From an uncultured Poribacteria bacterium (lineage in GTDB: Bacteria > Poribacteria > WGA-4E > WGA-3G): a stretch of DNA of 64,000 nt. The notes beneath the pieces were generated by a model, which worked only from the letters and a program-made list of their open reading frames with translations, was not told the origin of the DNA and ran no database searches. This document shows, piece after piece, positions 56-62,248 of this stretch. The translations under genes were made by a program, and so were the position numbers. Where the stretch lies: contig OX639973.1 of assembly GCA_951828385.1 (NCBI GenBank), positions 2,657,200 to 2,721,199 on the forward strand, read 5' to 3'. The first letter of the stretch is position 1, and every line of letters starts with the position of its first letter.

Positions 56-166
56 ATGATGAAAAAATTGACAGCGTTCTTTACGATTGCACTACTCGTT
101 TGTATCGCAACTTTTGTTGCCTTTGCGTCTAACCAAAACCGCGATGTGTCCCATTCCTATTTATAG
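56..166 (+). pseudogene. secreted-peptide ORF cut off by a MITE
   Basis: A 36-residue reading frame opens with two Met codons and looks like a signal peptide: MMKK, a hydrophobic core (LTAFFTIALLVCIATFVAF) and an AxA-like end. Its TAG stop is the first codon of the inserted element at 164. If that element and one copy of the TA target are removed, the frame runs on from position 288 as VVAQPPDDALIPSG and further, so the stop looks supplied by the insertion. The continuation would run into the dnaN terminator and the antisense of dnaN, so the true original end is unknown. The upstream AAAGAAG is only a weak ribosome-binding site. I do not recognise a family. Confidence 0.4.
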
Positions 167-285
167 TAAAGTTTAGAATTAATTGGGCACTCTCAAACAG
201 TCTGAATACCTATAACAGGCATTCAGACTGGCACAAACTGGAAGTTTGTGGTACGAATGTGTCTATTTATTTTTAGGATTCACTA
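164..285 (+). mobile_element. 122-bp MITE, family A copy 1
   Basis: Non-coding element with ends TAGTAAAGTTTAGAAT and (inverted) TAGTGAATCCTAAA, flanked by TA on both sides, as expected for TA-target duplication by IS630/Tc1-type transposases. It holds two internal hairpins: CAGTCTGAAT...ATTCAGACTG (from 199) and the perfect CACAAACT-gga-AGTTTGTG. A second copy in inverted orientation at 27495-27616 has the same length and differs at two bases only. No transposase is encoded, so mobilisation would be in trans. Confidence 0.85.
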
Positions 286-355
286 TAGTAGTCGCTCAGC
301 CTCCTGATGACGCACTTATCCCCTCCGGGCTTTCAGATAAAGACGGTACAGGTAC

Positions 356-7389: not shown

Positions 7390-7413
7390 AAACAGACAGA
7401 GGAGATTCTAATA

Positions 7414-7440
7414 TAGTAGAATCCATAATTACTTTACTCT
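7414..7440 (+). repeat. solo MITE-like end
   Basis: TAGTAGAATCC...ATAATTAC preceded by TA. The same layout starts the element at 12228 and recurs at 59041. No matching right end was found here, so this is probably a remnant. Confidence 0.4.
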
Positions 7441-7496: not shown

Positions 7497-7539
7497 CCAG
7501 GCCCGGTAGGTGCGGTTTGCAACTGCACCGGACTTCACC
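7497..7539 (+). repeat. REP-like palindromic repeat copy 1
   Basis: 43-bp unit CCAGGCCCGGTAGGTGCGG... with arms GGTGCGGTT and AAC(T/C)GCACC. It closely matches 18216-18258 and less fully 62211-62248. Copies 1 and 2 are also both followed by AATTTTTTAATCTTCA. It sits between the GldG-like gene and the DUF4340 gene. Confidence 0.75.
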
Positions 7540-7637
7540 GAATTAATTTTTTAATCTTCAACAAATCGCGCCTACGAGGGATGTTCACTTAATCAAAAAC
7601 CACCGTGAAACGGTGCCCAGAGGCCATAGCTAAAAAG

Positions 7638-8613: not shown

Positions 8614-8740
8614 ATAGTTATCAGTTAATACTTTGTGGCGGTTACCTTTCCTGCTACTGCCACAGTATACCTCTTTAACTGAAAACTGAAAGATTTTTTC
8701 GTAGAAAAAAATCGTACTGTTAACTGACAACTATTAAAGC
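8614..8740 (+). repeat. AACTG-type intergenic repeat (empty-site copy)
   Basis: Begins AGTTATCAGTTAATACTTTG and ends with CTGTTAACTGACAACTATTAA. The same sequence recurs at 12211-12436, where a 120-bp element interrupts it exactly at CAGTTA/ATACTTTG. It fills the gap before the SIMPL gene. Confidence 0.75.
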
Positions 8741-8771
8741 GGCACAGCTGCCGCAAGGAAGGGGATTTATT

Positions 8772-9557: not shown

Positions 9558-10607
9558 TTATCGGATTATAGGCACCTTCCGCCACCCCTGCCCGTCTGTG
9601 AATTCCCGAACACTCAAGCACCAAACAACAACCCGTTTGCCTTTCATGTTATCGCGCCGCCGATACAGGTTCAAGCGGGACGGCGTTGCGCCGGAACCCC
9701 GAACCGCTACGACATCTACTGGAAATCCGAGTTGATAGGCGAGTTGGTCAGGTAAACCCGCTCCCTGCGCGTGCATATCGGCACCGGCGTGAAAAACAAG
9801 GTTATGGCTATCCCCTAATAGAACAACCGGACTCGCTCGCCACGAAGCACCGACACCGTCCTTGATGTGCGTGAGTCGTAATTGCTCCTTTTGCAGATTT
9901 TCGTCGCCGAGATCCCGCCAAAGATCACCCGTAATTGAAATCGTGCGAGTTTCGGTCTCTATATCACGTTTAGGTATCTCTGCTGTCCACACAGGCGTAC
10001 CGATGGCTTCAGCAATCGCTGCCGCCGCCAACACACACCCCTGTCCAGACCAGTGCGTATCTTGTTTGCAGTAGACGGGACCGGCATCGGTGAACCGATT
10101 TTTGAGAAAAAGCGGCGTTAAGTCAAGCACATTCACGCCCTGCTCTCGCAAAATGTCGTAGAATTTTAGATGGTATTCATCAGCCCGCGCTGTAGCGTCT
10201 CCATGTTCGGAAATCATCTCAGGATAAATCGTGGCTTTTGCCGGTATTGGAACAAAGATTAGTTCAATACCTGCTTTGTCCAATTGCACCTTGAAGTCGA
10301 GGATAGCAGGCAGTGGATCGGCGAATTCAGGATTTGATGCCCGACTGACGCGCGCCGCTGCATCTCCCCAAAATTGCCCAACGCTCATCGCGCGCAGTTC
10401 CGGAGCAAAGAACAACCACCCCTCTTTCCCAGAAACGACTGTTGTCTGTTGTGCCTCTGCTTCGGCAGCCTTTTCAGCCAACGACTGTATGAAAAGTTCC
10501 GTTTCAGCCGCCGTGAAGTTAGAAAACGCCAGCAGTAGCGTAGATAATAACACGTAGATCGTAACTTGTAAGACTCTCTTTATTGAACAACGCCTTCCCA
10601 AAATCAT
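9558..10607 (-). CDS. AlgJ/AlgX-like O-acetyltransferase-associated protein
   Basis: 349 residues from the ATG at 10607, which overlaps the TAA of the upstream gene by one base (TAATG) and has GGGGAGG 8 nt upstream; the longer frame to 10643 lacks such support. A signal anchor is followed by an AlgX/AlgJ SGNH-hydrolase-like domain: GKEGWLFFAPELRAM, then FVPIPAKATIYPEM, the D-x-H motif DTHWSGQG and the serine motif LLGDSHN. In alginate systems such proteins move acetyl groups onto polysaccharide in the periplasm, with AlgI handing acetyl across the membrane. The polymer here is unknown. Confidence 0.85.
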   Translation of the reverse strand: MILGRRCSIKRVLQVTIYVLLSTLLLAFSNFTAAETELFIQSLAEKAAEAEAQQTTVVSGKEGWLFFAPELRAMSVGQFWGDAAARVSRASNPEFADPLPAILDFKVQLDKAGIELIFVPIPAKATIYPEMISEHGDATARADEYHLKFYDILREQGVNVLDLTPLFLKNRFTDAGPVYCKQDTHWSGQGCVLAAAAIAEAIGTPVWTAEIPKRDIETETRTISITGDLWRDLGDENLQKEQLRLTHIKDGVGASWRASPVVLLGDSHNLVFHAGADMHAQGAGLPDQLAYQLGFPVDVVAVRGSGATPSRLNLYRRRDNMKGKRVVVWCLSVREFTDGQGWRKVPIIR

Positions 10608-12160
10608 TACGGTACCTCCCCCCAATAAACATCCAATAACCACGCATCTTCAGTTTCCAATTCCTTGCGATTGTAGCTGCCGTATTCAGTTTCGACTGCT
10701 GTCCATGGACGGAGATGCAACTTAACTTTCTGTCCTACTTTGAAAGTCGCAGCAGCTGTCCACTGATTTTCACGCATGCCCCACAGAAATACAACGAATT
10801 CCTCTGGTAAATTAGATGTCCGAAGATTTTCGAGATGTAGTGCGATGATGCATTCGGAATACGGAACGGTTCGCGGCATCGGCGGCTTTGTCCTCGCCTT
10901 GATAGTCGCTGTGACAGTTAGGTCCTCACTTTGATCGGTAGATGTCGTTTGTAACTGCTCAGCGGTTTGAATCTGTGGTATTGATAATAGTTTCCAGTCA
11001 CCAGAGAAGAGTTCCCGCGTTGCGAATTGATAGACAAGCACGCGTTTCCCAGTGAGGCGATCGCGTCCACGGTTGAGTGCTTGCACAAGTGCTTGACGCG
11101 TCGCATCGGCACCACCAGCGTTGATGACAATTTTATCGATGGGTCGCGCGAGTGCCGCACTGAGGTGTTCAACAAAACCCGAAGAATCACCCCATCCCAT
11201 ACCAGCGAGTGAATAGATGTTGCTGAAACTGTCCCCCAAAAACAGAATCTCTGAATTTTGCGCCGATTGACGATCTATAGAGGTTTCGACAACGCGGCGT
11301 GTGACGCGCTCCTGCGGAAACAACTTTTGACCGGTTGGCAGTTTCAGCATCTTCGCAATATCCCCGATGTTAACAGTATCCTCGGGTGTTTTGACGTAGG
11401 TAAACGATGGTTCTGAGGGCAGTCGAACCTTTTCCTCAATAAATGCAGCCAAACGTTCTGCAACGCGTTCCATCGCTTCCGGTTTCCAGTGCGTATCCGT
11501 TTTGAGATATTGTGGTTCTCGGCGGGCAGCTGCAAAGAGCAGTGGCGCGGGATCGTATGCAAGCACGCCTTCTGCCGTAAGTGTCTCAACAAACGCTGCA
11601 TAGTTAGGGTTCTGTATGGGTGCATTAGGATCAGAATAGCGCGCTGAAAACTTCTCAGGGTGAATTGTTGGTTTAACAGGTGTTGGCACAATGATAAGCG
11701 TGATGTCGCGTGCTTGCAACTGACGATTGAAGTCGATAATGGCTGTGAGTGCTGTACTTGCTGTTTCTTGGGAGTCAGGAGTAATGAGTGAATCTATGTC
11801 GGCACGGTAGAATAACCACCCGTCGCGTCCGAGATAGGCTTGTTCATTGCCGATAAAGAACACCCGCGTTAGAACCGTCTGAACGCTCGGCAACAGCCAA
11901 TGGGTCAGTACAGATTCTTCCTCCAGCGTATCCTCGTACTGCGCAATCTCTGTGAGGTTAGGTACCGGTAACAAATTAATTGCTCGGAAGATGTGAGGTG
12001 GCTCGCCACGCAGGCCATCGGAGATCAACTGGCAGATTGGAACGGACAGAAGCGTCACACTGAAGATGACAAGACCAACAATGCTTACATTTCGTTTGAC
12101 TTGTGTGGAGCCGAGTTCTTTTTCAGCCGTCTCTCGGCGATGTTCAGCTAAGTTTCGCAT
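10607..12160 (-). CDS. AlgJ/AlgX-like protein with C-terminal beta domain
   Basis: 517 residues. An N-terminal membrane anchor (about 24-46) is followed by an AlgJ/AlgX-like domain: GRDGWLFYRADIDSL, IVPTPVKPTIHPEKF, catalytic D-x-H in KTDTHWKPEA and serine motif FLGDSFSN. After about residue 400 a further domain of about 115 residues has the look of a beta-rich carbohydrate-binding or accessory module. It is the upstream partner of the 349-residue paralogue and is translationally coupled to it. Both probably act on the same periplasmic polymer with the MBOAT protein encoded upstream. Confidence 0.85.
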   Translation of the reverse strand: MRNLAEHRRETAEKELGSTQVKRNVSIVGLVIFSVTLLSVPICQLISDGLRGEPPHIFRAINLLPVPNLTEIAQYEDTLEEESVLTHWLLPSVQTVLTRVFFIGNEQAYLGRDGWLFYRADIDSLITPDSQETASTALTAIIDFNRQLQARDITLIIVPTPVKPTIHPEKFSARYSDPNAPIQNPNYAAFVETLTAEGVLAYDPAPLLFAAARREPQYLKTDTHWKPEAMERVAERLAAFIEEKVRLPSEPSFTYVKTPEDTVNIGDIAKMLKLPTGQKLFPQERVTRRVVETSIDRQSAQNSEILFLGDSFSNIYSLAGMGWGDSSGFVEHLSAALARPIDKIVINAGGADATRQALVQALNRGRDRLTGKRVLVYQFATRELFSGDWKLLSIPQIQTAEQLQTTSTDQSEDLTVTATIKARTKPPMPRTVPYSECIIALHLENLRTSNLPEEFVVFLWGMRENQWTAAATFKVGQKVKLHLRPWTAVETEYGSYNRKELETEDAWLLDVYWGEVP

Positions 12161-12227
12161 AATAGTTTTATAAGGGTTATCAGTTTGCTTCGCAGTGAGA
12201 ATACGCTGCGCTTTCAGTTATCAGTTA

Positions 12228-12347
12228 TAGTAGATCCTGTAATTACTTATACACTCGTATCGTTATGTGAGTTTGTGAATGTCAACCTCATGGAGGCACA
12301 GGCTAACAACCTATGCTACAAGTGTAACATATTTTCGAGTTTTACTA
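12228..12347 (+). mobile_element. 120-bp MITE, family B, with preserved empty site
   Basis: Ends TAGTAGATCC and (inverted) TAGTAAAACTCG; TA precedes and follows. The flanks CAGTTA and ATACTTTG are contiguous at 8624-8638, so the insertion and the TA duplication can be read directly. Internal sequence differs from family A but includes CACAGGCTAACA and TATGCTACA, which recur near 33250. No ORF of note. Confidence 0.85.
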
Positions 12348-12449
12348 TAATACTTTGTGTCGGTTACTTTTTGTTTCACTGCTACAATACACCTCTTAAC
12401 TGAAAACTGAGTACTGTTAACTGACAACTATTAAAATAACTGATAACTA
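12348..12449 (+). repeat. AACTG/AACTA repeat tract
   Basis: Continuation of the copy interrupted by the 12228 element: CACCTCTTAACTGAAAACTGA, then TTAACTGACAACTATTAA and a degenerate second unit ATAACTGATAACTATTAA, ending at the stop of the MBOAT gene. No gene seen. Confidence 0.6.
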
Positions 12450-13853
12450 TTAAAAAATAAAATAGATGAACGGATTATATGCCTGCGTTGCCAAAACAGC
12501 GAGAGATAACCAGAGCAGCGTTATGCATATCCCTATTTTGAGAGGGGTCAACTGTCGCGTCCAGTCCCACGTCTGTGGAAAACACCAGACGACAACGCAC
12601 GCTATGCCCATAACCAACAGATAATAAGGTTGATAGAGGATACCAGCAATTAAATCGGTACTGGGTTGAACCTGAACCTTGCTGAACATGCATTGCAGAT
12701 AGGTGATTGCATGTGGAAGTTCACTGATTCTAAAGAAAACCCACGCGATCAGTACAAGTAGGAACGTCGCTACGACCCGTAAGGGTTTCGGTATTGATCC
12801 GTAAAAACTCGCCTTTCCGCGTTTCCTCTCAAGTGCAAGCATGCCGCCGTGGATTCCGCCCCAGATAACAAAATTCCAAGACGCACCGTGCCATAAGCCG
12901 CCGAGCAGCATCACAAGTGCCAAGTTGACGTAGGTGCGGGCAGCACCGCGACGGTTTCCACCGAGCGGGATGTAGAGATAATCGCGCAACCAACTCGAAA
13001 GTGAGATATGCCATCGCCGCCAGAACTCCGTAATAGATTCAGCACGGTAAGGCGCATCAAAGTTCTTGGGGAAAGTAAATCCGAGCATCAACCCCAAACC
13101 GATCGCCATGTCGGAATAACCGCTAAAATCGAAATAGATCTGAAACGCATAAGCGATGACACCATACCATGCCTCAAGTGTACCAACGACACCGACATCA
13201 AAGACTGTATCCGCACATTTGCCGCAAGGGTTTGCTATCAAAATCTTCTTCGCCATTCCGAGCGAAAAGAACGCGATACCGCGAGCGAACTTCTGTAACG
13301 TGTGCGTGCGCTGTCGTAACTGATCGGCAATCTCTGAAAATCGAACGATCGGACCCGCGACGAGTTGTGGAAACATTGACACATAACAGGCGAAGTCAAT
13401 AAAATTCCGAATCGCCTTCGCATCACGGCGATAGACATCTATCGTATAACTCATCGACTGGAAGGTATAGAAACTGATACCGAGCGGCAGCGTTACGTGA
13501 AGAACACCCTCCCATATCGGCAGCCCAAGTCCTCCCATAATAGCGTTTATGTTCGCGATGCCGAAATTGAAGTATTTGAAAAAACCTAAAAGGGACAGAT
13601 TTGAGCAGATCGAAACCGTCAACGCCAATTTACGGTTGCGTTGACGTTCACTTCCTGAGAGCACACGACCACACGTATAATCAATCAGTGTTGAAGCAAA
13701 CATGAGCGGAGCAAACAGAGGGTTTGCCCACCCGTAAAAGATATAACTGAAGATCGTCAACCCGAAGTGTTTTGCCCGGCGCGGAAGCAGATAGTAACTT
13801 ATTAACGCAATAGGGAGGAAGTAATAGACGAAGATGTGCGAACTGAAAACCAT
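12450..13853 (-). CDS. MBOAT O-acyltransferase (AlgI/DltB-like)
   Basis: 467 residues, polytopic. Typical MBOAT features are all present: LPLGISFYTFQSMSYTIDVY, FDFSGYSDMAIGLGLMLGF, FWRRWHISLSSWLRDYLYIP, and the catalytic-His region LGGLWHGASWNFVIWGGIHG. In alginate acetylation AlgI passes acetyl groups to periplasmic AlgJ/AlgX. Here it is encoded upstream of two AlgJ/AlgX-like genes and downstream of a PepSY-SGNH gene on the same strand. The acceptor polymer cannot be told from the sequence. Confidence 0.95.
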   Translation of the reverse strand: MVFSSHIFVYYFLPIALISYYLLPRRAKHFGLTIFSYIFYGWANPLFAPLMFASTLIDYTCGRVLSGSERQRNRKLALTVSICSNLSLLGFFKYFNFGIANINAIMGGLGLPIWEGVLHVTLPLGISFYTFQSMSYTIDVYRRDAKAIRNFIDFACYVSMFPQLVAGPIVRFSEIADQLRQRTHTLQKFARGIAFFSLGMAKKILIANPCGKCADTVFDVGVVGTLEAWYGVIAYAFQIYFDFSGYSDMAIGLGLMLGFTFPKNFDAPYRAESITEFWRRWHISLSSWLRDYLYIPLGGNRRGAARTYVNLALVMLLGGLWHGASWNFVIWGGIHGGMLALERKRGKASFYGSIPKPLRVVATFLLVLIAWVFFRISELPHAITYLQCMFSKVQVQPSTDLIAGILYQPYYLLVMGIACVVVWCFPQTWDWTRQLTPLKIGICITLLWLSLAVLATQAYNPFIYFIF

Positions 13854-18144: not shown

Positions 18145-18215
18145 TATGTGCGTCCTTTCATACGCTCGGCGTTTAAGGCACCGTCGCTGGGTCACCCCGC
18201 CAGTGGCTATTTTCC

Positions 18216-18258
18216 CCAGGCCCGGTAGGTGCGGTTTGGAACCGCACCGGACTTCGCC
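18216..18258 (+). repeat. REP-like palindromic repeat copy 2
   Basis: CCAGGCCCGGTAGGTGCGG..., palindromic arms GGTGCGGTT / AACCGCACC; nearly identical over 43 bp with 7497-7539, including the downstream AATTTTTTAATCTTCA that here forms the 3' end of the flotillin gene. Confidence 0.75.
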
Positions 18259-18280
18259 AAGAAATTATCGAATAAATTTT

Positions 18281-20173
18281 TTAATCTTCATGTGAATCAT
18301 CTGAACTGACTTGAGCATCCACCGCCAATTCGGTATCATGTGAATCATCTGAACTGACTTGAGCATCCACCGCCAATCCGGAAGCATAATCCCGAACAGT
18401 TCGGGCAATCTTTTCGGTGTCTAAACCGCTGAATCCAACAATCTCCTTGAGCAAGGGTATGGCTGCCCCAGCGTTGACAATCGAACTGAGGACACGGTTC
18501 ATACCGCCGCCACCATTGCCGTTGTTTCCGAGGTCAAGTACCCGGATGCTTTCAATGCGTTCCGCGGGTTTCATCAATTCGCCGGTCACCTCAGGGAGCG
18601 ATGCCACGAGTGCCAATATAGCATCACTCACGAGCACTTTGGAATCCGCCTGATTCTTCGCAGCAATAGATGCCTCTTCACCATCAGCCTTCGCTTTTGC
18701 TTCAACGAGCAGTGCCTCTGCAAGAATTCTCTGTGCCTGCGCTTCAAGTTCAGCCGCTGCAAGTGCCGCCTTGGCAGCAGTTTCAACAGCGTATGCTTCT
18801 GCATCCGCATTCCGTTCTTTGGCAATCCGTTCCTCATCGGCTTCTTGCTCGGCACGGATCAGTTCGATTTTGCTTTGGCGTTCCGCTTCCTCAATCGCCT
18901 CGGCTGTTAAAACTGATGCTTCGGCTCTCGCCTTTTGTGCAGTCACCTCCAAGAGTTCAGTGAGCGCTGCCTCACGTTCCTTTTCTTTGATTGAAACTTG
19001 GATTGCGTTTTCGGCTTGCGCCTCTTTTTCCGCACGATCTTTCTCAACCAGAACAATTCTACTGGCGATGCTTGCTTCCTCTACAGCGCGTTGCTGCTCA
19101 ATCTTGGCAGTTTCGACTGAAAGATTACGCTCGATTTCTGCTTCCTCAACCGTCTGTTCTTGTTGCACACGCGCAATTTCGATTGCCTGCTTTTGCGTAA
19201 TCTCTGTCTCTTGGACTTGGCGTTCTTGTTCAAGTCGAGCCGTCTCTAATCGCTGCTTCTGAAGAATCTCCGAAGATTTCACCGCCTCTTCCTGTTTAAT
19301 GCGTGCTTCTTCAACAGCCTGCAGCTGTTCAAGTTTGTGCGCTTCAATCTCGCGTTCCTGCTCCGCTTTATTGGTGGCGATTGCCTTGCGCTGCTCTTCC
19401 TGCGCGAAGTCAAGCCGTTTTTCGACTTCTAAGCCCTCAGTTTCCGTTTCCTCCTCACGCTGTTTAATCTCAAGTTCGGCTTTGAGCCGATCCTCTTCAC
19501 GCTTCACCTTGTTTTCGTGCTCAATCCGAGCCGTTTGCGTCTGCTTGTCTTCAACCTCTTGCTTGATCGTCTGAATCGCAACAACATCAAACCGGTTGTT
19601 CTCGTCAAGTGCATCAAGCGGGGTCTGGTCGAGATTCGTGACGGCAACGCTTTCTAATTTAAAGCCGTTTTGCTCAAGATCATCGCGACAGGCTTCCTGA
19701 ACTTGGTCAGAAAATGCTTGGCGTTTTTCGTGCAGTTCTTGGAGATCCATGGTTGCGGCGACACTGCGGAGTACCCCGACAAGTTTGCCTTCAAGGAGTT
19801 TATTAACTGCTTCCGGCGTTAGGGTTTTATCACCGAGACTTGCGACAGCTTTAAGCACATCTTGTTCGTTTGGTTCAATTTTGACATAGAATTGTGCCTC
19901 TATATCAACCCGTAAACTGTCCTTTGTGATAAGCGCGCCTTGACCGGTGCGCTCAACAGGTAGCTGGAGCGTATTTAGAGAAATGAGTTGGTGCGTGTTC
20001 GTAATTGGGTTGATGAGGGTACCACCGAAGACGACGCGCTTTTTTCGTCCGCCGGAGACGACTAACGCCGCATCTGCTGGTGCTTTTTTGTAGAAAGAAC
20101 GATAGACTAATAGGAAAATTACGACTAAAGCGACAACACTGCCGATAATCGTGATAAACAAATTCGGATTCAT
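18281..20173 (-). CDS. flotillin-like SPFH domain protein
   Basis: 630 residues: an N-terminal membrane helix (about 7-27), an SPFH/band-7 domain to about residue 200 (RVVFGGTLINPI, then EAQFYVKIEPN), and a very long Glu/Ala/Lys/Gln coiled coil to about 520, then a flotillin tail with RIESIRVLDLGNNGNGGG. Flotillins organise membrane microdomains. It is followed upstream by an OB-fold membrane protein, as in E. coli yqiJ-yqiK and Bacillus yuaF-floT. The extreme C-terminus carries a 16-residue tandem duplication (ELAVDAQVSSDDSHD) coded by the 48-bp repeat at 18289-18384. Confidence 0.93.
   Translation of the reverse strand: MNPNLFITIIGSVVALVVIFLLVYRSFYKKAPADAALVVSGGRKKRVVFGGTLINPITNTHQLISLNTLQLPVERTGQGALITKDSLRVDIEAQFYVKIEPNEQDVLKAVASLGDKTLTPEAVNKLLEGKLVGVLRSVAATMDLQELHEKRQAFSDQVQEACRDDLEQNGFKLESVAVTNLDQTPLDALDENNRFDVVAIQTIKQEVEDKQTQTARIEHENKVKREEDRLKAELEIKQREEETETEGLEVEKRLDFAQEEQRKAIATNKAEQEREIEAHKLEQLQAVEEARIKQEEAVKSSEILQKQRLETARLEQERQVQETEITQKQAIEIARVQQEQTVEEAEIERNLSVETAKIEQQRAVEEASIASRIVLVEKDRAEKEAQAENAIQVSIKEKEREAALTELLEVTAQKARAEASVLTAEAIEEAERQSKIELIRAEQEADEERIAKERNADAEAYAVETAAKAALAAAELEAQAQRILAEALLVEAKAKADGEEASIAAKNQADSKVLVSDAILALVASLPEVTGELMKPAERIESIRVLDLGNNGNGGGGMNRVLSSIVNAGAAIPLLKEIVGFSGLDTEKIARTVRDYASGLAVDAQVSSDDSHDTELAVDAQVSSDDSHED
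18289..18384 (-). repeat. 48-bp tandem duplication in the flotillin 3' end
   Basis: Two adjacent 48-bp units starting CATGTGAATCATCTGAAC on the plus strand; the first 41 bases are identical and the last few differ. In frame, so it only lengthens the acidic tail. Confidence 0.9.
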
Positions 20174-24862: not shown

Positions 24863-24877
24863 CCGTAACCCGAAAAG

Positions 24878-24945
24878 AACTTACGCAATTCCCTGGTAGG
24901 TGCGGTTTCCTAACCGCACCTACCCCCTGGGAATAGGCGTAAGTT
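24878..24945 (+). repeat. 68-nt composite REP-like hairpin
   Basis: Nested arms pair in order: AACTTACGC/GCGTAAGTT, ATTCCC/GGGAAT, GGTAGGTGCGGTT/AACCGCACCTACC. The inner arms are the core of the REP-like family (7497, 18216, 62211), but this copy pairs perfectly and carries extra outer arms. Short direct repeats GTAACCCGAAAA flank it (24864 and 24974). It may also end transcription of the upstream gene. Confidence 0.8.
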
Positions 24946-24980
24946 CGCGGTTTTGCGTAAGTCCTACAGAAAGTAACCCG

Positions 24981-25159: not shown

Positions 25160-25343
25160 ATTGGCCATTAACCGTCAGCCATCAGTGCGTTTTTTTCAAA
25201 AAAACCTTTCAGTTTTGAGTAGTTATCAGTTTTCAGACCGGTTTTTCTGCGAAAACCTTTCAGTTTTCAGTTAAGAGGTTTTCGTTTAACGAGTCCCTCT
25301 TGTAACTAATAACTGACAACTAACAACTAACAACTAAAAAATC
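25160..25343 (+). repeat. AACTG/AACTA repeat tract
   Basis: Variants of AACTGAAAACTGA and AACTAACAACTAACAACTA, including two copies of AAAACCTTTCAGTTTT. The tract runs to the ATG of the next gene and replaces any clear ribosome-binding site. Confidence 0.6.
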
Positions 25344-27474: not shown

Positions 27475-27494
27475 AAAGACGTTCCAATATAATA

Positions 27495-27616
27495 TAGTGA
27501 ATCCTAAAGATAAATAGACACATTCGTAGCACAAACTTCCAGTTTGTGCCAGTCTGAATGCCTGTTATAGGTATTCAGACTGTTTGAGAGTGCCCAATTA
27601 ATTCTAAACTTTACTA
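27495..27616 (-). mobile_element. 122-bp MITE, family A copy 2 (inverted)
   Basis: Reverse complement of 164-285 with two mismatches. Ends TAGTGAATCC and TAGTAAAGTTT (inverted), flanked by TA. It lies between the frameshifted antitoxin and the 3' end of the NTPase gene. Confidence 0.9.
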
Positions 27617-27648
27617 TAATGTCTTTTTTAGGAAAAAGTAAAGCCAAC

Positions 27649-38636: not shown

Positions 38637-41600
38637 CTATTTCACTATTAACATTTTCCGCGTAGCAGTGAAATTACCCGCCGTTAGGGAATAAAAATAG
38701 ACACCACTCGCCACAGGTTCTCCTACCTCGTTCTTGCCATTCCAATACGCCGCACGGGTGCGACTCTGATAGATACCAGCGACTTGATGCCCTAACGCCA
38801 ACGTCCGAACCAAGACACCATCCGCAGCATAGATACGCACCGTCACATCCGCAGCCTCCGCAAGGTCGTACGGTATCCACGTCTCTGGGTTAAACGGGTT
38901 CGGATAGTTCGGCAGCAACGCCGTCTTTTCGGGAAGTAGTACCGCTAAAAGTTGTTGGAGGTTTTCGATGCCTCGCTGGAAAGCAAGCGACCCATCATTT
39001 TCAACCCGTGCCTGCACTATCCAAGCTTGAACGATTGCCGGGTCCAATTCCAAAGTCTCTATCCCAGTAACATAGAAAGGGGCAGCTGCATTAGCGGGTT
39101 CACCGAGATGTTGTGCGACAACGATCAAGTCTAAGACATTAATAGTCCCATCGCCATTTACGTCAGATTGTGGGTTAGCGGATGCATCTTCGCCCAAATG
39201 TTGTGCCACGAGAATCAGATCGAGAACGTTCGTAGTCCCATCGGCATTCACATCCCAAGTAAGGAACGCACCCTCTTCCACAGTGATCACGATTTCAGGA
39301 ACGTCTGAAGGGATCTCCGCACCGCTACTGGCACCAGCAAAGAAATCGCTAAATGTTACACGCGTTTCTCCGGTCGCCTTCGCCCTAAATGTAACCAGGA
39401 GGAGGGTGCCTGTGCCACTTGTACTACTGCCGAACCTTGCTGAACTTAACTTCGTGATCTCACCCACAGTATTATCAATTGTACCTGATAGAAAGAAGGT
39501 AGATGCTTCTTCTGCCTTCAAAAAATTGCCTTCGTTCACCTCAACGGCTTCAAGCACATCCGAGTCAAACGCAATATCAGTTTGCCATCCTGCTAAATCC
39601 GTAACATCATTTGCACTGAGCTGAAGAACGAAAGTATCACCCATGCGAATGGGGTCTGCATCTGTGGAAAGAGAGAATCTATCATCACCCACAACCGAGG
39701 GCGACGGATCTCCGACCGTGATGATAATATCAGGTGCAGGAGACAAAATCGTCTCACCAAGGCTGGAACCGGCTTGAAACTTACGCAGCGACAACCGACT
39801 CTCGCCGTTCGCTTTTGCTGTGAAAGAGACCGACAGCAGTGTGCCTTCACCGTTAGCACCACCTTCGGATATCCGGGCAGCACCTATATCGGCAATTCTG
39901 CCTGTAGTATTATCAATTGTGCCTTCCAGAAAGTGGCTACGTCCACCCCCCTGCTCCAGAAAATTGCCCTTGCTCACACTGTTTGCTTTTAGCACAGTGG
40001 GATCAAAAATAACATCAGATTGCCATCCCGCTAAGTTAGAGATATTTTCCGCTTTGAGTTGAACGGTGAAAGTATCACCAACCTTAACCTGTGTCGCCGC
40101 TGTGGAAAAGGAAAATCTGGTCCCAGGCGGTAATACCGTATATTCAGTATCAGGTGAAAATCCAAAATGACCGCACCACCCCCCACCCCAAGCATGAACA
40201 GCAACCAATAGGACGTTTTTTCCTTGTTTTAGCGTGACAGGGAAGGATTGCTGATAATCGGTTGCCCAATCCCCATCAAGTTTCTCGTTAACTAATTTGC
40301 CATTAAACCAGACTTTGTGATTATTATCGCTTCCGACAAACATTTCTGTTTGTTGTTCCCGAGGGGATTCTAAGGAGACTGAACCATAAACCACGTTGTC
40401 ACTGTCAGTATTCCTTGACATACCGAGAGCATTCAGCATCTCGTTGATGTTGTTTCCACCCGTGGCGGAAATGCTATGGGAAGTCCAGATACTGTCGCCA
40501 ACGGGCTTTCCTTCTGTTGTTCCATTAGTAGCAACCCCCAATTCGGTTACATCACCTCCACTTGACTGGGCAAGCAAATCTGTGTTACGGAAACTCTCAA
40601 ACTGAGCACCTGGCAACAGTAACCACAACCAAGGTCCCGTAATTTTCGGACCTCCTTTTAGGAAAGCACCTGGATTGCCTTGCGCCCTAACAATCGTCTT
40701 CTCGGACAACCCATCTAAAGACGAAAAGTCAGATATTGCATTGTTCCGAAGGTCTAACCGTTCCAAGTTGGTTAACCCCGCAAGTGGCGATACATCTGAT
40801 ATTTGGTTATTTTCAAGGTATAACAACTCCAATCGTGTTAACTTCGCCAGCGGTGATACATCTTTGATAACGTTAGCGTCAAGATTCAAATGTTCCAAAC
40901 TTGTTAGGTTACCCAACGGTGTGACATCCGATATCTGGTTATTGACCAATGATAACCATTCCAACTGTGTTAACTCCGCTAATCCAGAGAGATCTGAGAT
41001 ATTGCAGTTAGTGATTTCCAAACGTTTCAGTGCTTTTAAACCCTTCAGAGAAGGAAGAGCCGATATTGATCTGTCATCGCCAAATTCTATCCAGCTGAGT
41101 CTCGTTAATTTTGCCAAGGGTGAGAAGTCAGAGATGGGCGTACCCCAAGCGTCTATCCGTTCTAAACTGATTAAGTTCGCGAGCGGTGAAACATTTGATA
41201 TGGGATTCCGTGAAATCCCGATCCCGTTTAATTTTACTAATCCGGCAAGCGGTGACAAATCGGTAATCTCATTCTCCTCAAGTCCCAACCAATCCACATT
41301 GATTAACCCAGCAAGCGGGGATACGTCGATGATCCTGTTCCCTCGGAGCTTGATGTTATTCAGCCGTGTCAAGTTTCTGAGTGGAGATAAGTCAGATATG
41401 GAATTATGACGAAACTCTATCCGTTCCAGATTCGTCGCAGCCTCAAGGCCCCTCAGATCACTTATACCCCTTTCATCAACCTCAATGCGCTCTAACCTTG
41501 CCATGTCGCCTGCTGTAATCACCGCACCAGGGGATTTACCGAGCCTCTCCTCAATGGCAGCGCGGAGGTTCGGATCCGGGATAGAAACCAGATCACCAGG

Positions 41601-43307
41601 GCGATAGTCAACCCCCGGATCGACCGGACGCGGTACGGTGGTGTCCGGGGAATGCAGCGCGGAAACCACATCCGTAAAGTGCTTCGTCCATACATCGCGC
41701 TTCACGTTACCGCCTGCATCTTCCAGAACCCCCAAACCCAAATCTCCTAAACTCGGATTCTCACGAATCTTTTCAAGGAACACGCCAGCCTCTAAACCGA
41801 CAGCCGCAGCGGCGTGGGACGCATCAAGAGGCCCTTGAAACGCTTCGTAGAGCCGATGCACCGGTTCAATACCGCCAAATACACCGCCCGTGGCTTCAAG
41901 TGCATCTCTGTAACGCTTTGTATCAGCTGCAATGTAAGCATCCATCTTGGATTGTTCCACATACAGAAGCAACGCTTGTGCTTTCTCCGGACTGTCAGCC
42001 TCCCTTGAAACAAACGCACGCACCTGATCTTCAAACGTTTGCATCCCTTCTGTGTGGCAACCGATGCAGGACAGACCGTTGCGGACAGTCGGATCACTCG
42101 CAGCCTTGTTGGAGACTATCGCGAGCGGAGCCGCATTTATCCGATTCCCTGATCCATCCGAGATATAATACGCCTGCAAACCGTTCGGGAGATGGAAGAC
42201 AACCTCGCCACCGTCATGTTTGAAAGACACTGGATGCGTAAAGATATTTTGGGTGCCGATGTTACCGGCGAAATCGTAACTTTTCCAATACGCGCCGTGT
42301 GGTGATCTGTGCCGTTCTAAAACCCGATTATTCGCCGATACACGCGAGCCGTTGAAACCCGCACGCCAGACGTTCACACCCGGCGCATTTTGAAGATTTC
42401 TTATCACATCTATACCCAATGCTTTTTCAAGTTCATGCTCCGTCTCAGGCAGATCCAAAATCTCGTGATACAGGGGCGGCAGCGATGCCGTCGCCAGAAA
42501 CCAGTCAACATACACGAACGGCACCTCACAGGCCATTTCCGCACGCAAAGCCACCAACTTCTCGTGCAAACCGGCTTGTGTTTCTGGATTGAACGCAATT
42601 TGATACGGGTATGCTTGTTCAATCCGCGTCCATGCTTCATTCCGAAAAACCCAATCGTAGTGCCGCAGGTCAATGTAGAAAATAGTTCTTCCCGGGTCAA
42701 TCGGTTGGGGTTTAATGATTTCGGAGCCCCAAGAGAGACTGTTCACCAGTTTAGAAAGCGCGAGCCGATATGCCTCTAATGCCTCCGGTGTTTCGCCCGC
42801 ATTATAGAGATGTGTAAGTGTAAAATAGCGCGCAGAAGGACGATCAAATGCGGGGAGCGTCTCAAGATGTTTCTCGATTGTATCAAGCATCACATCCGTC
42901 GTAATGAAGTTGACATCATACTGCACCTGCCAATTCGGTGCCCCTGCTTCAATCCAGTGGCGGATTGTCTCAATCAGCTCAGGTGCCATCGGTGGCTGTC
43001 CGAGGGGCATCCGTCTTTCTGGAGCGGTTTCTATTAACCGTCGATAGAACCCAGAACCGTTAGGATCTCCGGGAGCAATCGCGCCAGTTGCAACCAGCCC
43101 TTCCGCGGACTGAATAACGAGGGCGTCCCTAAAAGTGCCGTGTTCTCCGTGGCAACCGAGACAGTGTTTTTGAAGGATGACATACGCCTCTTGCGCGAGT
43201 TCTTGTTGTGCAGCTGCGGTTCCAAATCCCAGCAGAATGAGGGTTAAGATAATTACAGTATAGCACAAACCGTGCATGTGTGGTCCGAGGTATTTTCCGG
43301 TTTTCAT
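38637..43307 (-). CDS. secreted cytochrome-LRR-cohesin-dockerin protein
   Basis: 1,556 residues. Signal peptide (HGLCYTVIILTLILLG), first c-haem site CLGCH near 48, second CIGCH near 415 (both of planctomycete-cytochrome type), then about a dozen InlA-like leucine-rich repeats (ISDVSPLAGLTNLERLDL) from about 600 to 880, a shared beta domain (MFVGSDNNHKVWFNG), two cohesin-like domains, a dockerin with two DVN.DG..NVLDL segments, and a FlgD-like C-terminus with NYPNPFNPETWIPY ending TATRKMLIVK. The last looks like a sorting or anchoring domain. Together with its 22-bp neighbour it is a surface or secreted adhesin-like pair. Function unknown. Confidence 0.82.
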   Translation of the reverse strand: MKTGKYLGPHMHGLCYTVIILTLILLGFGTAAAQQELAQEAYVILQKHCLGCHGEHGTFRDALVIQSAEGLVATGAIAPGDPNGSGFYRRLIETAPERRMPLGQPPMAPELIETIRHWIEAGAPNWQVQYDVNFITTDVMLDTIEKHLETLPAFDRPSARYFTLTHLYNAGETPEALEAYRLALSKLVNSLSWGSEIIKPQPIDPGRTIFYIDLRHYDWVFRNEAWTRIEQAYPYQIAFNPETQAGLHEKLVALRAEMACEVPFVYVDWFLATASLPPLYHEILDLPETEHELEKALGIDVIRNLQNAPGVNVWRAGFNGSRVSANNRVLERHRSPHGAYWKSYDFAGNIGTQNIFTHPVSFKHDGGEVVFHLPNGLQAYYISDGSGNRINAAPLAIVSNKAASDPTVRNGLSCIGCHTEGMQTFEDQVRAFVSREADSPEKAQALLLYVEQSKMDAYIAADTKRYRDALEATGGVFGGIEPVHRLYEAFQGPLDASHAAAAVGLEAGVFLEKIRENPSLGDLGLGVLEDAGGNVKRDVWTKHFTDVVSALHSPDTTVPRPVDPGVDYRPGDLVSIPDPNLRAAIEERLGKSPGAVITAGDMARLERIEVDERGISDLRGLEAATNLERIEFRHNSISDLSPLRNLTRLNNIKLRGNRIIDVSPLAGLINVDWLGLEENEITDLSPLAGLVKLNGIGISRNPISNVSPLANLISLERIDAWGTPISDFSPLAKLTRLSWIEFGDDRSISALPSLKGLKALKRLEITNCNISDLSGLAELTQLEWLSLVNNQISDVTPLGNLTSLEHLNLDANVIKDVSPLAKLTRLELLYLENNQISDVSPLAGLTNLERLDLRNNAISDFSSLDGLSEKTIVRAQGNPGAFLKGGPKITGPWLWLLLPGAQFESFRNTDLLAQSSGGDVTELGVATNGTTEGKPVGDSIWTSHSISATGGNNINEMLNALGMSRNTDSDNVVYGSVSLESPREQQTEMFVGSDNNHKVWFNGKLVNEKLDGDWATDYQQSFPVTLKQGKNVLLVAVHAWGGGWCGHFGFSPDTEYTVLPPGTRFSFSTAATQVKVGDTFTVQLKAENISNLAGWQSDVIFDPTVLKANSVSKGNFLEQGGGRSHFLEGTIDNTTGRIADIGAARISEGGANGEGTLLSVSFTAKANGESRLSLRKFQAGSSLGETILSPAPDIIITVGDPSPSVVGDDRFSLSTDADPIRMGDTFVLQLSANDVTDLAGWQTDIAFDSDVLEAVEVNEGNFLKAEEASTFFLSGTIDNTVGEITKLSSARFGSSTSGTGTLLLVTFRAKATGETRVTFSDFFAGASSGAEIPSDVPEIVITVEEGAFLTWDVNADGTTNVLDLILVAQHLGEDASANPQSDVNGDGTINVLDLIVVAQHLGEPANAAAPFYVTGIETLELDPAIVQAWIVQARVENDGSLAFQRGIENLQQLLAVLLPEKTALLPNYPNPFNPETWIPYDLAEAADVTVRIYAADGVLVRTLALGHQVAGIYQSRTRAAYWNGKNEVGEPVASGVYFYSLTAGNFTATRKMLIVK

Positions 43308-43328
43308 TATTTATCTCCTTACTGACAA

Positions 43329-45605
43329 TTATTTCGCTATCAACATCTTACGCGTTGCCGTGAAATCACCGGCAGTCAACGTATAAAAATAGACACCGCT
43401 GGCAACAGCTTCACCGAGTTGGTTACGACCATCCCAATACGCCGCACGCGTCCGTTGTTGATAGATACCCACAGACTGGTGTCCTAAGTTTAACGTCCGA
43501 ACCAAAGTGCCATTTATCGCATAGATGCCGATCTGCACATCGCTTGCTTGTGAGAGTTGATAAGGTATCCATGTCTCAGGATTGAACGGATTCGGGTAGT
43601 TCGCAAGCAATGCTGTTTGCTCTGGTGTCAACAACGCTAAAAGTTGCTGGAGATTTTCAATACCGCGCTGGAAAGCAAGCGAACCGTCGTTTTCAACCTG
43701 TGCTTGTGCTATCCACGCCTGTACGATTGCTGCGTCTAATCCGATGCTGCGGAGGGCAAGAACAGAAGGTGCAGCAGCAATTCCGCTGAGTTCACCGAGA
43801 TTTTGCGCGACAAGGATAAGGTCAGAGATATTGACAGTCCCATTGCCATTTACATCCGTGCGTTCATTGGTAGGATTGGCTTTTCCGAAGTTTTGCCCTA
43901 CCAGAATGAGATCCAAAATGTTTGTTATCCCATCTTTATTCACATCATAAGCTGGCACTTCAATCGTGACTTTTTTATCCGGGTGGTTCACTGTATATTC
44001 TGCGTCTTTGGCAAAACCAAAAAACCCGCTAAAAGCTCCATGCCCTCGATTGTCAAGGGCAACTAACAGGGCATTTGTCCCCTGTTTCAGCGTGACAGGG
44101 AAGGCATCTTGGAAATCACCAGCTCCCCGTTCCACAGGATTGTAGTGGACCACCTCCCCGTTAAGCCAGACCTTGACGCCATCATCGCTGCCGACGAGCA
44201 TTGTCGTTTCCTGTTTACGGGGCGAATTCAAGGTGAGAGAACCGTAAACGACGTGGTCGTATACCTCCGAACCACTGCCCCAGCCCAGGGCATCTGTCAT
44301 CTCGTTCATGTTATCACCACCTACGGCGGAAAGATTGTGGACGACCCACTTGCTGTCTCCGACGGGTTTGTCTTCGGTTGCCCCGAAGGTAGAGACTTTT
44401 ATTTCTGTAGCCGCCCCCTCGGTCGCTTTTGCCAGCAGGTCCGCGTTAGAAACGCCTGACCCGGGCACGATTGCCCACAACCAGGGTCCCACTATCTTTG
44501 GACCGGCTTCCGGGAATGTGGAGTTAACGAAATTCGCGTGTAAGATAGTTGTTTCGGTGGAAAACCGCTCCAACTGAGCCGGTTCAATGCGTGTGTTTTC
44601 GGCGAGGCCCATCCATGTTAGATTAGGTAAAACAGCGAGCGCGGATACATCTGTTATCGCGCTGTTTTGGCTCAAATCTAACCACCTTAATTGCCTTGAT
44701 GCCGCGAGGGCGGATACGTCCGATATTTTATTGTCACGGAAATCCGCCCAGGTCAAGTTGCTTAGCCCTTCAAGCGGCGAAAGATCCGAGATCTCGTTAT
44801 GTTCAAGACTGAGGTGTGTCAAACCTGTTAATCCCTTCAATGGTGACAGATCCGAGACCTCGTTACCGGGAAGGTAGAGTTCTTTTAAACCCTTCGCGTC
44901 GGCTAAGGCGGAGATATCCGATATCTCTCCGCCACACACATTGATTTCTCTGAGTTTGGGCAATTTCGCTATGGCGGATAGGTTCAATACAGGCGTGCCC
45001 CAAGAGTGATAATTATGCAAGTTTGTTAATCCTGAAAGAGGCGTGAGGTCTGCCACGGGATTATGGCTCATGCCTATCCATTCCAGTTTCATCAACCCTG
45101 CAAGCGGAGACAAATCGGATATGGCGTTGTGATGGAGCGTTATACCTCTCAGGTTGATTAATCCTTCAAGCGGCGAAAGATCAGTTATTAGATTAGTCCC
45201 AAGACGTAACTGATCCGCCGCGATTAATCCTTCAAGCGGTGAGAGATCGGTTATTTCATTCTCTTCCAACTCTATGTGACGCAGTTTTATCAATCCTTCA
45301 AGCGGCGAGATGTTGGATATTGAATTGTTGTTAAGCCTTAAGTCCTCCAGGTTTACTGAGGCTTCAAGACCCGCCAAGCTTCTGATGTCCATGCTCACTG
45401 CCCTAAGCTCCCGCAACCTTGCCATCTCATCGGCTGTAATCCGGGCATTCGGTGCTTTGCCGAGTGCCTCTTCAATCGCAGCACGAAGGTTATCATCGGG
45501 GATATTAACGGTCTGTGCTATTGTCGTCAATGGAAATACAAAGAATAGCGTTACGCAGAAGGTGAGTGTGTAAACGTAAATGTGTTGTTTATTAGTTAGT
45601 TGCAT
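43329..45605 (-). CDS. secreted LRR-dockerin protein
   Basis: 758 residues. Signal peptide (YTLTFCVTLFFVFPLTTIA), InlA-like leucine-rich repeats (about 70-350; SDLSPLEGLTGLTHLSLEHN), the same beta domain as its neighbour (MLVGSDDGVKVWLNG), a dockerin (DVNKDGITNILDLIL, DVNGNGTVNISDLIL) and a FlgD-like C-terminus with the same NYPNPFNPETWIPY motif. AGGAGAT precedes the ATG. It lies 21 bp upstream of the 1,556-residue paralogue and lacks its haem and cohesin parts. It may bind that protein through the cohesin-dockerin pair. Confidence 0.85.
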   Translation of the reverse strand: MQLTNKQHIYVYTLTFCVTLFFVFPLTTIAQTVNIPDDNLRAAIEEALGKAPNARITADEMARLRELRAVSMDIRSLAGLEASVNLEDLRLNNNSISNISPLEGLIKLRHIELEENEITDLSPLEGLIAADQLRLGTNLITDLSPLEGLINLRGITLHHNAISDLSPLAGLMKLEWIGMSHNPVADLTPLSGLTNLHNYHSWGTPVLNLSAIAKLPKLREINVCGGEISDISALADAKGLKELYLPGNEVSDLSPLKGLTGLTHLSLEHNEISDLSPLEGLSNLTWADFRDNKISDVSALAASRQLRWLDLSQNSAITDVSALAVLPNLTWMGLAENTRIEPAQLERFSTETTILHANFVNSTFPEAGPKIVGPWLWAIVPGSGVSNADLLAKATEGAATEIKVSTFGATEDKPVGDSKWVVHNLSAVGGDNMNEMTDALGWGSGSEVYDHVVYGSLTLNSPRKQETTMLVGSDDGVKVWLNGEVVHYNPVERGAGDFQDAFPVTLKQGTNALLVALDNRGHGAFSGFFGFAKDAEYTVNHPDKKVTIEVPAYDVNKDGITNILDLILVGQNFGKANPTNERTDVNGNGTVNISDLILVAQNLGELSGIAAAPSVLALRSIGLDAAIVQAWIAQAQVENDGSLAFQRGIENLQQLLALLTPEQTALLANYPNPFNPETWIPYQLSQASDVQIGIYAINGTLVRTLNLGHQSVGIYQQRTRAAYWDGRNQLGEAVASGVYFYTLTAGDFTATRKMLIAK

Positions 45606-62196: not shown

Positions 62197-62210
62197 GCCT
62201 CCCTTGATCC

Positions 62211-62248
62211 CCAGGCCGGTAGGTGCGGTTTGCAACCGCACCGGATCC
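62211..62248 (+). repeat. REP-like palindromic repeat copy 4
   Basis: CCAGGCCGGTAGGTGCGG... with arms GGTGCGGTT/AACCGCACC. Shorter than copies 1 and 2; located right after the sulfatase stop. Confidence 0.65.

Follow-up and report, generated by a model that had tools for sequence, protein, structure and literature searches.

A probable IS630-derived MITE with a REP-like interior hairpin in Candidatus Poribacteria

Results

The window analysed here, a stretch of 64,000 nucleotides from the genome of an uncultured Poribacteria bacterium (G000), contains an AlgX-like gene at 10607-12160 (Pfam ALGX, PF16822) and an MBOAT gene at 12450-13853 (PF03062), both on the minus strand. These two cell-surface-sugar genes of Candidatus Poribacteria bacterium bound a spacer in which a host intergenic repeat is interrupted by a short element (Table 1). 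Read directly, the element at 12228-12347 (TAGTAGATCC...TTTTACTA) is flanked by ATCAGTTA on the left and by TA plus ATACTTTGTG on the right, and no ORF of at least 80 aa lies in it. Its terminal inverted repeats are imperfect (the 21-nt arms are 71% complementary), and one T present in the rest of the family is missing from the right terminal repeat. The interior hairpin has one inner pair disrupted in this copy, with AAC in place of AGC, and the element folds only modestly better than shuffled sequences (z -1.8 on the plus strand and -2.75 on the minus strand). Rfam returned no match to the element, and its matches across the whole window were a tmRNA and one tRNA only.

Table 1 Features of the insertion locus, related elements in the window, and orthologous empty sites in congeners
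Feature	Position or genome	Strand	Sequence or remarks
MITE, 120 bp	12228..12347	+	TAGTAGATCC...GTTTTACTA; without coding capacity
Target duplication, left TA	12226..12227	.	Two TAs here against a single one in empty orthologues
Target duplication, right TA	12348..12349	.	From comparison with empty orthologues
Left terminal repeat, TA included	12226..12254	+	TATAGTAGATCCTGTAATTACTTATACAC; corresponds to the 3' (transposase-distal) end of the parent IS630
Right terminal repeat	12320..12349	-	Reverse complement TATAGTAAAACTCGAAAATATGTTACACTT; corresponds to the 5' (transposase-proximal) end of the parent IS630
REP-like hairpin	12295..12319	-	GGCACAGGCTAACAACCTATGCTAC; reverse complement begins GTAGCATAGG
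AlgX-like/MBOAT spacer	12161..12449	.	Holds the host repeat hit by the MITE; from ORFs and Pfam
Host intergenic repeat, paralogous copy without MITE	8616..8745	+	The 'empty site' of the earlier note
Sister MITE, 126 bp	162..287	+	TATAGTAAAGTTTAG...CACTATA; own hairpins
Sister MITE, second copy	27493..27618	-	Opposite orientation; hairpin GTAGCACAAACTTCCAGTTTGTGCC
Empty orthologous site	G004 (L239)		ATCAGTTA|TCCGCTTGTGGCGG
Empty orthologous site	G006 (L242)		ATCAGTTA|CTCACTTGTGGCGG
Empty orthologous site	G008 (L244)		ATCAGTTA|CCCACTTGTGGCGG
Window locus with element and one TA taken out	G000		ATCAGTTA|ATACTTTGTGTCGG

An earlier note on this DNA had read the sequence at 8620 (ATCAGTTA|ATACTTTGTGGCGG) as the empty site of this insertion and had taken the exact ends of the element from that internal comparison. 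Homology between the two loci does extend beyond a few bases, the right flanks aligning over 64 bp at 83% identity (E 5.9e-10 within the window) and over another 25 bp at 100%. The left flanks share 12 bp (AGTTATCAGTTA) of CAGTTAT-type heptamers, and because this stretch is short and a heptameric repeat the left junction stays ambiguous from the comparison with 8620 alone. The host repeat has 61 matches genome-wide in G000; we therefore rejected 8620 as the pre-insertion allele and regard it as a paralogue. The repeat is a mosaic, seen in the window at 8616-8745, 12350-12455 and 25174-25322 and at about 60 places in the genome, with CAGTTAT-type heptamers and hairpins such as TTGTGGCGGTAACG..GGTAACTGCCACAA and GGTTTTTCGCAGAAAAACC. 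Across congeners its position is kept and its content is highly variable.

Orthologous sites were located with a 1-kb piece of the adjoining MBOAT gene, which matched 12 of the 38 genomes of the genus, the window's own included. Three congeners (G004, G006 and G008) keep the AlgX/MBOAT spacer and the host repeat with one TA and without the element. Their spacers read ATCAGTTA followed by 14 bases, the length of the G000 sequence once the element and one TA are subtracted. These empty sites fix both junctions and the TA duplication, and the insertion in this spacer, its borders and its duplicated TA are in that sense demonstrated by comparison; that it is an insertion here instead of several separate losses is a matter of parsimony. 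It is extremely improbable that the 120 bp are no insertion at all and that the spacer diverged or the homologues lost the segment. Such a history would suit a fast-changing repeat region, and in three further genomes (G029, G013 and G032) the element is absent from a spacer that is rearranged, but the same sequence with the same ends recurs at many unrelated sites, nearly always as T-TA / TA-A, and three orthologues lack exactly the element plus TA. The target duplication given in the earlier note is thus upheld, the three empty orthologues having a single TA where the window has two.

The element is one of many copies of a family whose ends are constant, and this, together with the empty sites, supports its original designation as a MITE. 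Neither outcome that the earlier note had named as refuting it was seen, the flanks being homologous and copies with these ends numerous. BLAST and pattern searches found at least 11 full-length copies in the single-contig, 6.66-Mb genome of G000. The left end is present in 35 of the 38 genus genomes, in six other genomes of the family and in two of the order, with 80 matches in G033; the sampled more distant genomes had none, and a reversed-pattern control gave 0 matches in every genome. We read 73 full-length copies from several genomes in their entirety, selected by TATAGT/ACTATA at both ends, and their ends fit the consensus past these selecting bases too. The copies are 93-234 bp long. 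A T stands before the element's TA in 69/73 copies and an A comes after it in 68/73, which points to T-TA-A as the preferred target. An apparent half MITE of the main family lies at 7412-7440 of the window, where a left end (TATAGTAGAATCCATAATTACTT) without a right end nearby adjoins a GGTAGGTGCGG palindrome.

Two sister MITEs in the window, which the earlier note left unmentioned along with the hairpin cassette, are identical at 124/126 positions and carry their own GTAG-tagged hairpin. Their ends are closer to a second IS630 clade, with 5 and 8 mismatches per 29 positions against the element of G026. The near identity of the two copies suggests that they moved recently, though no helper was found. 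Elsewhere in the window, at 38638-45504, there are long direct repeats that have diverged, one of 625 bp at 71% among them; they probably represent paralogous genes in tandem.

Full-length IS630 elements of 904-916 bp in relatives have TATAGTR..YACTATA ends around a transposase with HTH_Tnp_IS630 and DDE_3 domains, in keeping with the IS630-type source proposed earlier. The element of G034 is 916 bp long, ends in TATAGTAGATTCCGAAAATAAGTTTACAT and TATAGTAAAATCCGTAATTACTTATACAC, and uses two frames to encode the HTH_Tnp_IS630 and DDE_3 parts (PF13358, E 6e-32; PF01710, E 3e-11; NF033545 above cut-off). In a related, G005-type element the frames of 112 and 188 aa overlap, which suggests a frameshift product. 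The two ends of the IS are unlike each other. Each differs from the MITE consensus at 3/29 positions, and each MITE end is nearer to its own IS counterpart than to the other end (3 vs 7 and 3 vs 5 mismatches). Many Candidatus Poribacteria genomes contain similar IS630 elements that share these terminal bases, and in the named collection all sequences with at least 60% identity to the G034-type transposase come from Candidatus Poribacteria, except one record labelled Latescibacterota.

The search for a transposase, which the earlier note had proposed, was thus successful in relatives and found no helper in the window's own genome. When the whole IS was compared with G000 (completeness estimate 95%), only its terminal 28-36 bp matched (IS positions 1-36 and 881-916), and the cognate transposase had 0 matches at E<=1e-15. 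The G000 copies are therefore ends without an engine, probably stranded in a genome from which the helper is absent. Two DDE_3 transposases encoded by G000 were considered as helpers and rejected, their borders not being TATAGTA. A 1444-bp TATAGTA..TACTATA interval in G045 (L111:1246-2689) was likewise dismissed as an autonomous copy; it encodes an IS701-family transposase and is apparently another IS nested between MITE-type ends. In G058, several contigs (L106, L108-L110) stop just within an element with TATAGTAAAACCTGTAATTACTTATACAC ends, a pattern expected from a recent multicopy IS breaking the assembly.

Across the 73 copies surveyed, hairpins of at least four different families lie between the same ends. 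The cassettes comprise GGCACAGG..CCTATGCTAC hairpins in 1, 2 or 4 copies, GGTGCGGTTAGGAAACCGCACCTACC (with extra inserts in the loop of some copies), GGCGAGGATACAATCCTCGCC and GGGAATCGGAGTTCCCTCCTAC, besides other types. In most of them CTAC lies at or just past the palindrome, i.e., GTAG ahead of the palindrome on the other strand, which is the hallmark of GTAG REP sequences (PMC3733652). An automatic scan of the 73 best hairpins placed CTAC on the 3' side in 39 and GTAG on the opposite side in 2. The CTAC tag is missing from one cassette class (L277, L098, L303); the GGCGAGG..CCTCGCC class is not GTAG-tagged. The hairpin of the window MITE, whose reverse complement starts GTAGCATAGG, is also found free-standing at about 30 places in G000. 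Free-standing GGTAGGTGCGGTTT..ACCGCACC palindromes, of a hairpin family that is also found as one MITE cassette, lie in the window at 7497-7560, 18213-18290, 24877-24946 and 62208-62245.

Two G033 copies at different sites, L249 and L121, share 70 identical bp on the left and 41 bp on the right, their sole difference being the hairpin core, CTAACAG in one and AGACCAACGGTTT in the other; in G025, the right hairpin arm is the only difference between copies L286 and L284. Left and right arm types are associated, with 42 short-short, 21 long-long and 8 hybrid copies (42/5/3/21; Fisher p 1.8e-10, a value that overstates independence because the copies are related by descent). This table is a hand tally from the printed copy list plus the GAGACTGACAGCC copy. 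The association of arm types indicates that hairpin pairing is largely kept; the compensating change GGCT..AGCC to GCCT..AGGC is frequent (31 and 9 copies), and part of the hairpins are broken or hybrid. Pairing thus appears to be largely conserved while the hairpin sequence is exchanged, exchange here meaning differences between copies.

Discussion

The element at 12228-12347 is very probably a non-autonomous IS630-type MITE of a family that arose from an IS630 element of about 910 bp by replacement of the gene with hairpin cassettes, and its REP-like hairpin is apparently exchanged between copies. An IS630 transposase, acting as is typical of its family, would recognise the two unequal ends of about 29 bp. 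It would have joined the MITE into a T-TA-A site of the host repeat and duplicated the TA, the target and the duplication being demonstrated by comparison. The ends of the presumed parental element survive in relatives, its gene having putatively given way to hairpin cassettes here, and the GTAG-tagged interior palindrome, which also occurs outside the MITE, may be swapped between MITE copies.

How cassettes are exchanged can be explained in several ways. Homologous recombination, gene conversion or template switching during replication could exchange the cores with no dedicated enzyme, an explanation for which we see the chances as evenly balanced. The constant outer stem (GCACAG/CTATGC) and the YAAC loop are possible crossover points, hybrids combine one short with one long arm, and copy L070 contains four successive hairpins; yet the CTAC tag and its position, common to unrelated cassettes (GGTGCGGTTAGGAAACCGCACC, GGGAATCGGAGTTCCC), are left unexplained. 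That tag, found beside several unrelated hairpins and on the right side in 39 copies vs the left in 2, would instead fit REP elements moved independently by a RAYT (HUH) transposase and inserting into, or replacing sequence within, MITEs. Free-standing hairpin copies and the core swap between L249 and L121 are in line with such movement, and two G000 proteins score above the NCBIfam threshold for a REP-associated tyrosine transposase. GTAG REPs are frequently located near RAYT genes (PMC3733652), whereas no such hairpins lie within 1.5 kb of either RAYT-type gene of G000, at 1235 kb and 476 kb, and the arm hybrids at the AAC loop resemble recombination or template switching more than clean insertion; we consider RAYT-driven movement unlikely.

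A regulatory RNA comparable to BOX, with hairpins that function in a transcript between the two genes and transposon ends of secondary importance, is quite improbable. The position of the element between two co-directional genes and the mostly retained pairing of its hairpins would agree with such a role, but Rfam contains no matching family, the fold is little better than that of shuffles, and the orthologues manage without the element.

Returning to an IS630-derived MITE with an exchangeable interior, we tentatively propose, with slightly less than even confidence, a two-layer mobile element in which the IS630 ends serve as a shuttle and the REP-like payload is replaced in place, as a whole core or a single arm. 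One transposon family would in this way spread several palindrome families over Poribacteria genomes. If payload exchange is real, MITEs and REPs, which are usually treated apart, become linked, and REPs gain a route of spread without a RAYT of their own. For MITEs, ends and target rules are commonly guessed by aligning copies; in the present case they come directly from empty orthologues, a parent IS and a large family.

The literature searched turned up no MITE description for the Poribacteria phylum, nothing on Poribacteria together with IS630 (weak evidence, as only open-access literature was covered) and no description of one IS630-end family with several exchangeable GTAG-hairpin families. 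Derivation of a MITE from an IS630 element is already established for RUP and IS630-Spn1 in Streptococcus pneumoniae (PMC3049150). RUP is likewise a small interspersed repeat of about 107-130 bp, present in high copy number and sharing its ends with an IS630 element (PMC3049150). It differs from the Poribacteria family in sequence and phylum and is simple, whereas the interior described here is a swappable hairpin cassette and the helper is missing from G000. A partial precedent for the hairpin payload is provided by GTAG repeats in TATA-ended palindromes (PMC3733652): in Anabaena variabilis, GTAG-tagged REP dimers lie in TATAGGA...TCCTATA, that is, tagged palindromes inside longer TATA-bounded palindromes. 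In that cyanobacterium a single REP family was described and the outer palindrome was not linked with a transposase (PMC3733652), whereas the outer ends in Poribacteria are matched to IS630 and several unrelated hairpin families lie within. The pneumococcal BOX element (boxA-boxB(n)-boxC; PMC3049150) is similarly modular, with constant ends and middle modules that vary in number and kind, as are the Poribacteria elements with their 1 to 4 hairpins; this likeness is one of architecture by description only, and the parental transposon is clearer for the Poribacteria MITE. In Porphyromonas gingivalis, the MITE BrickBuilt contains a minisatellite and likewise has a repeated unit inside it, but this unit, of 23 nt, is arrayed in tandem head to tail, unlike the exchangeable palindromes of the Poribacteria family (PMC4596501).
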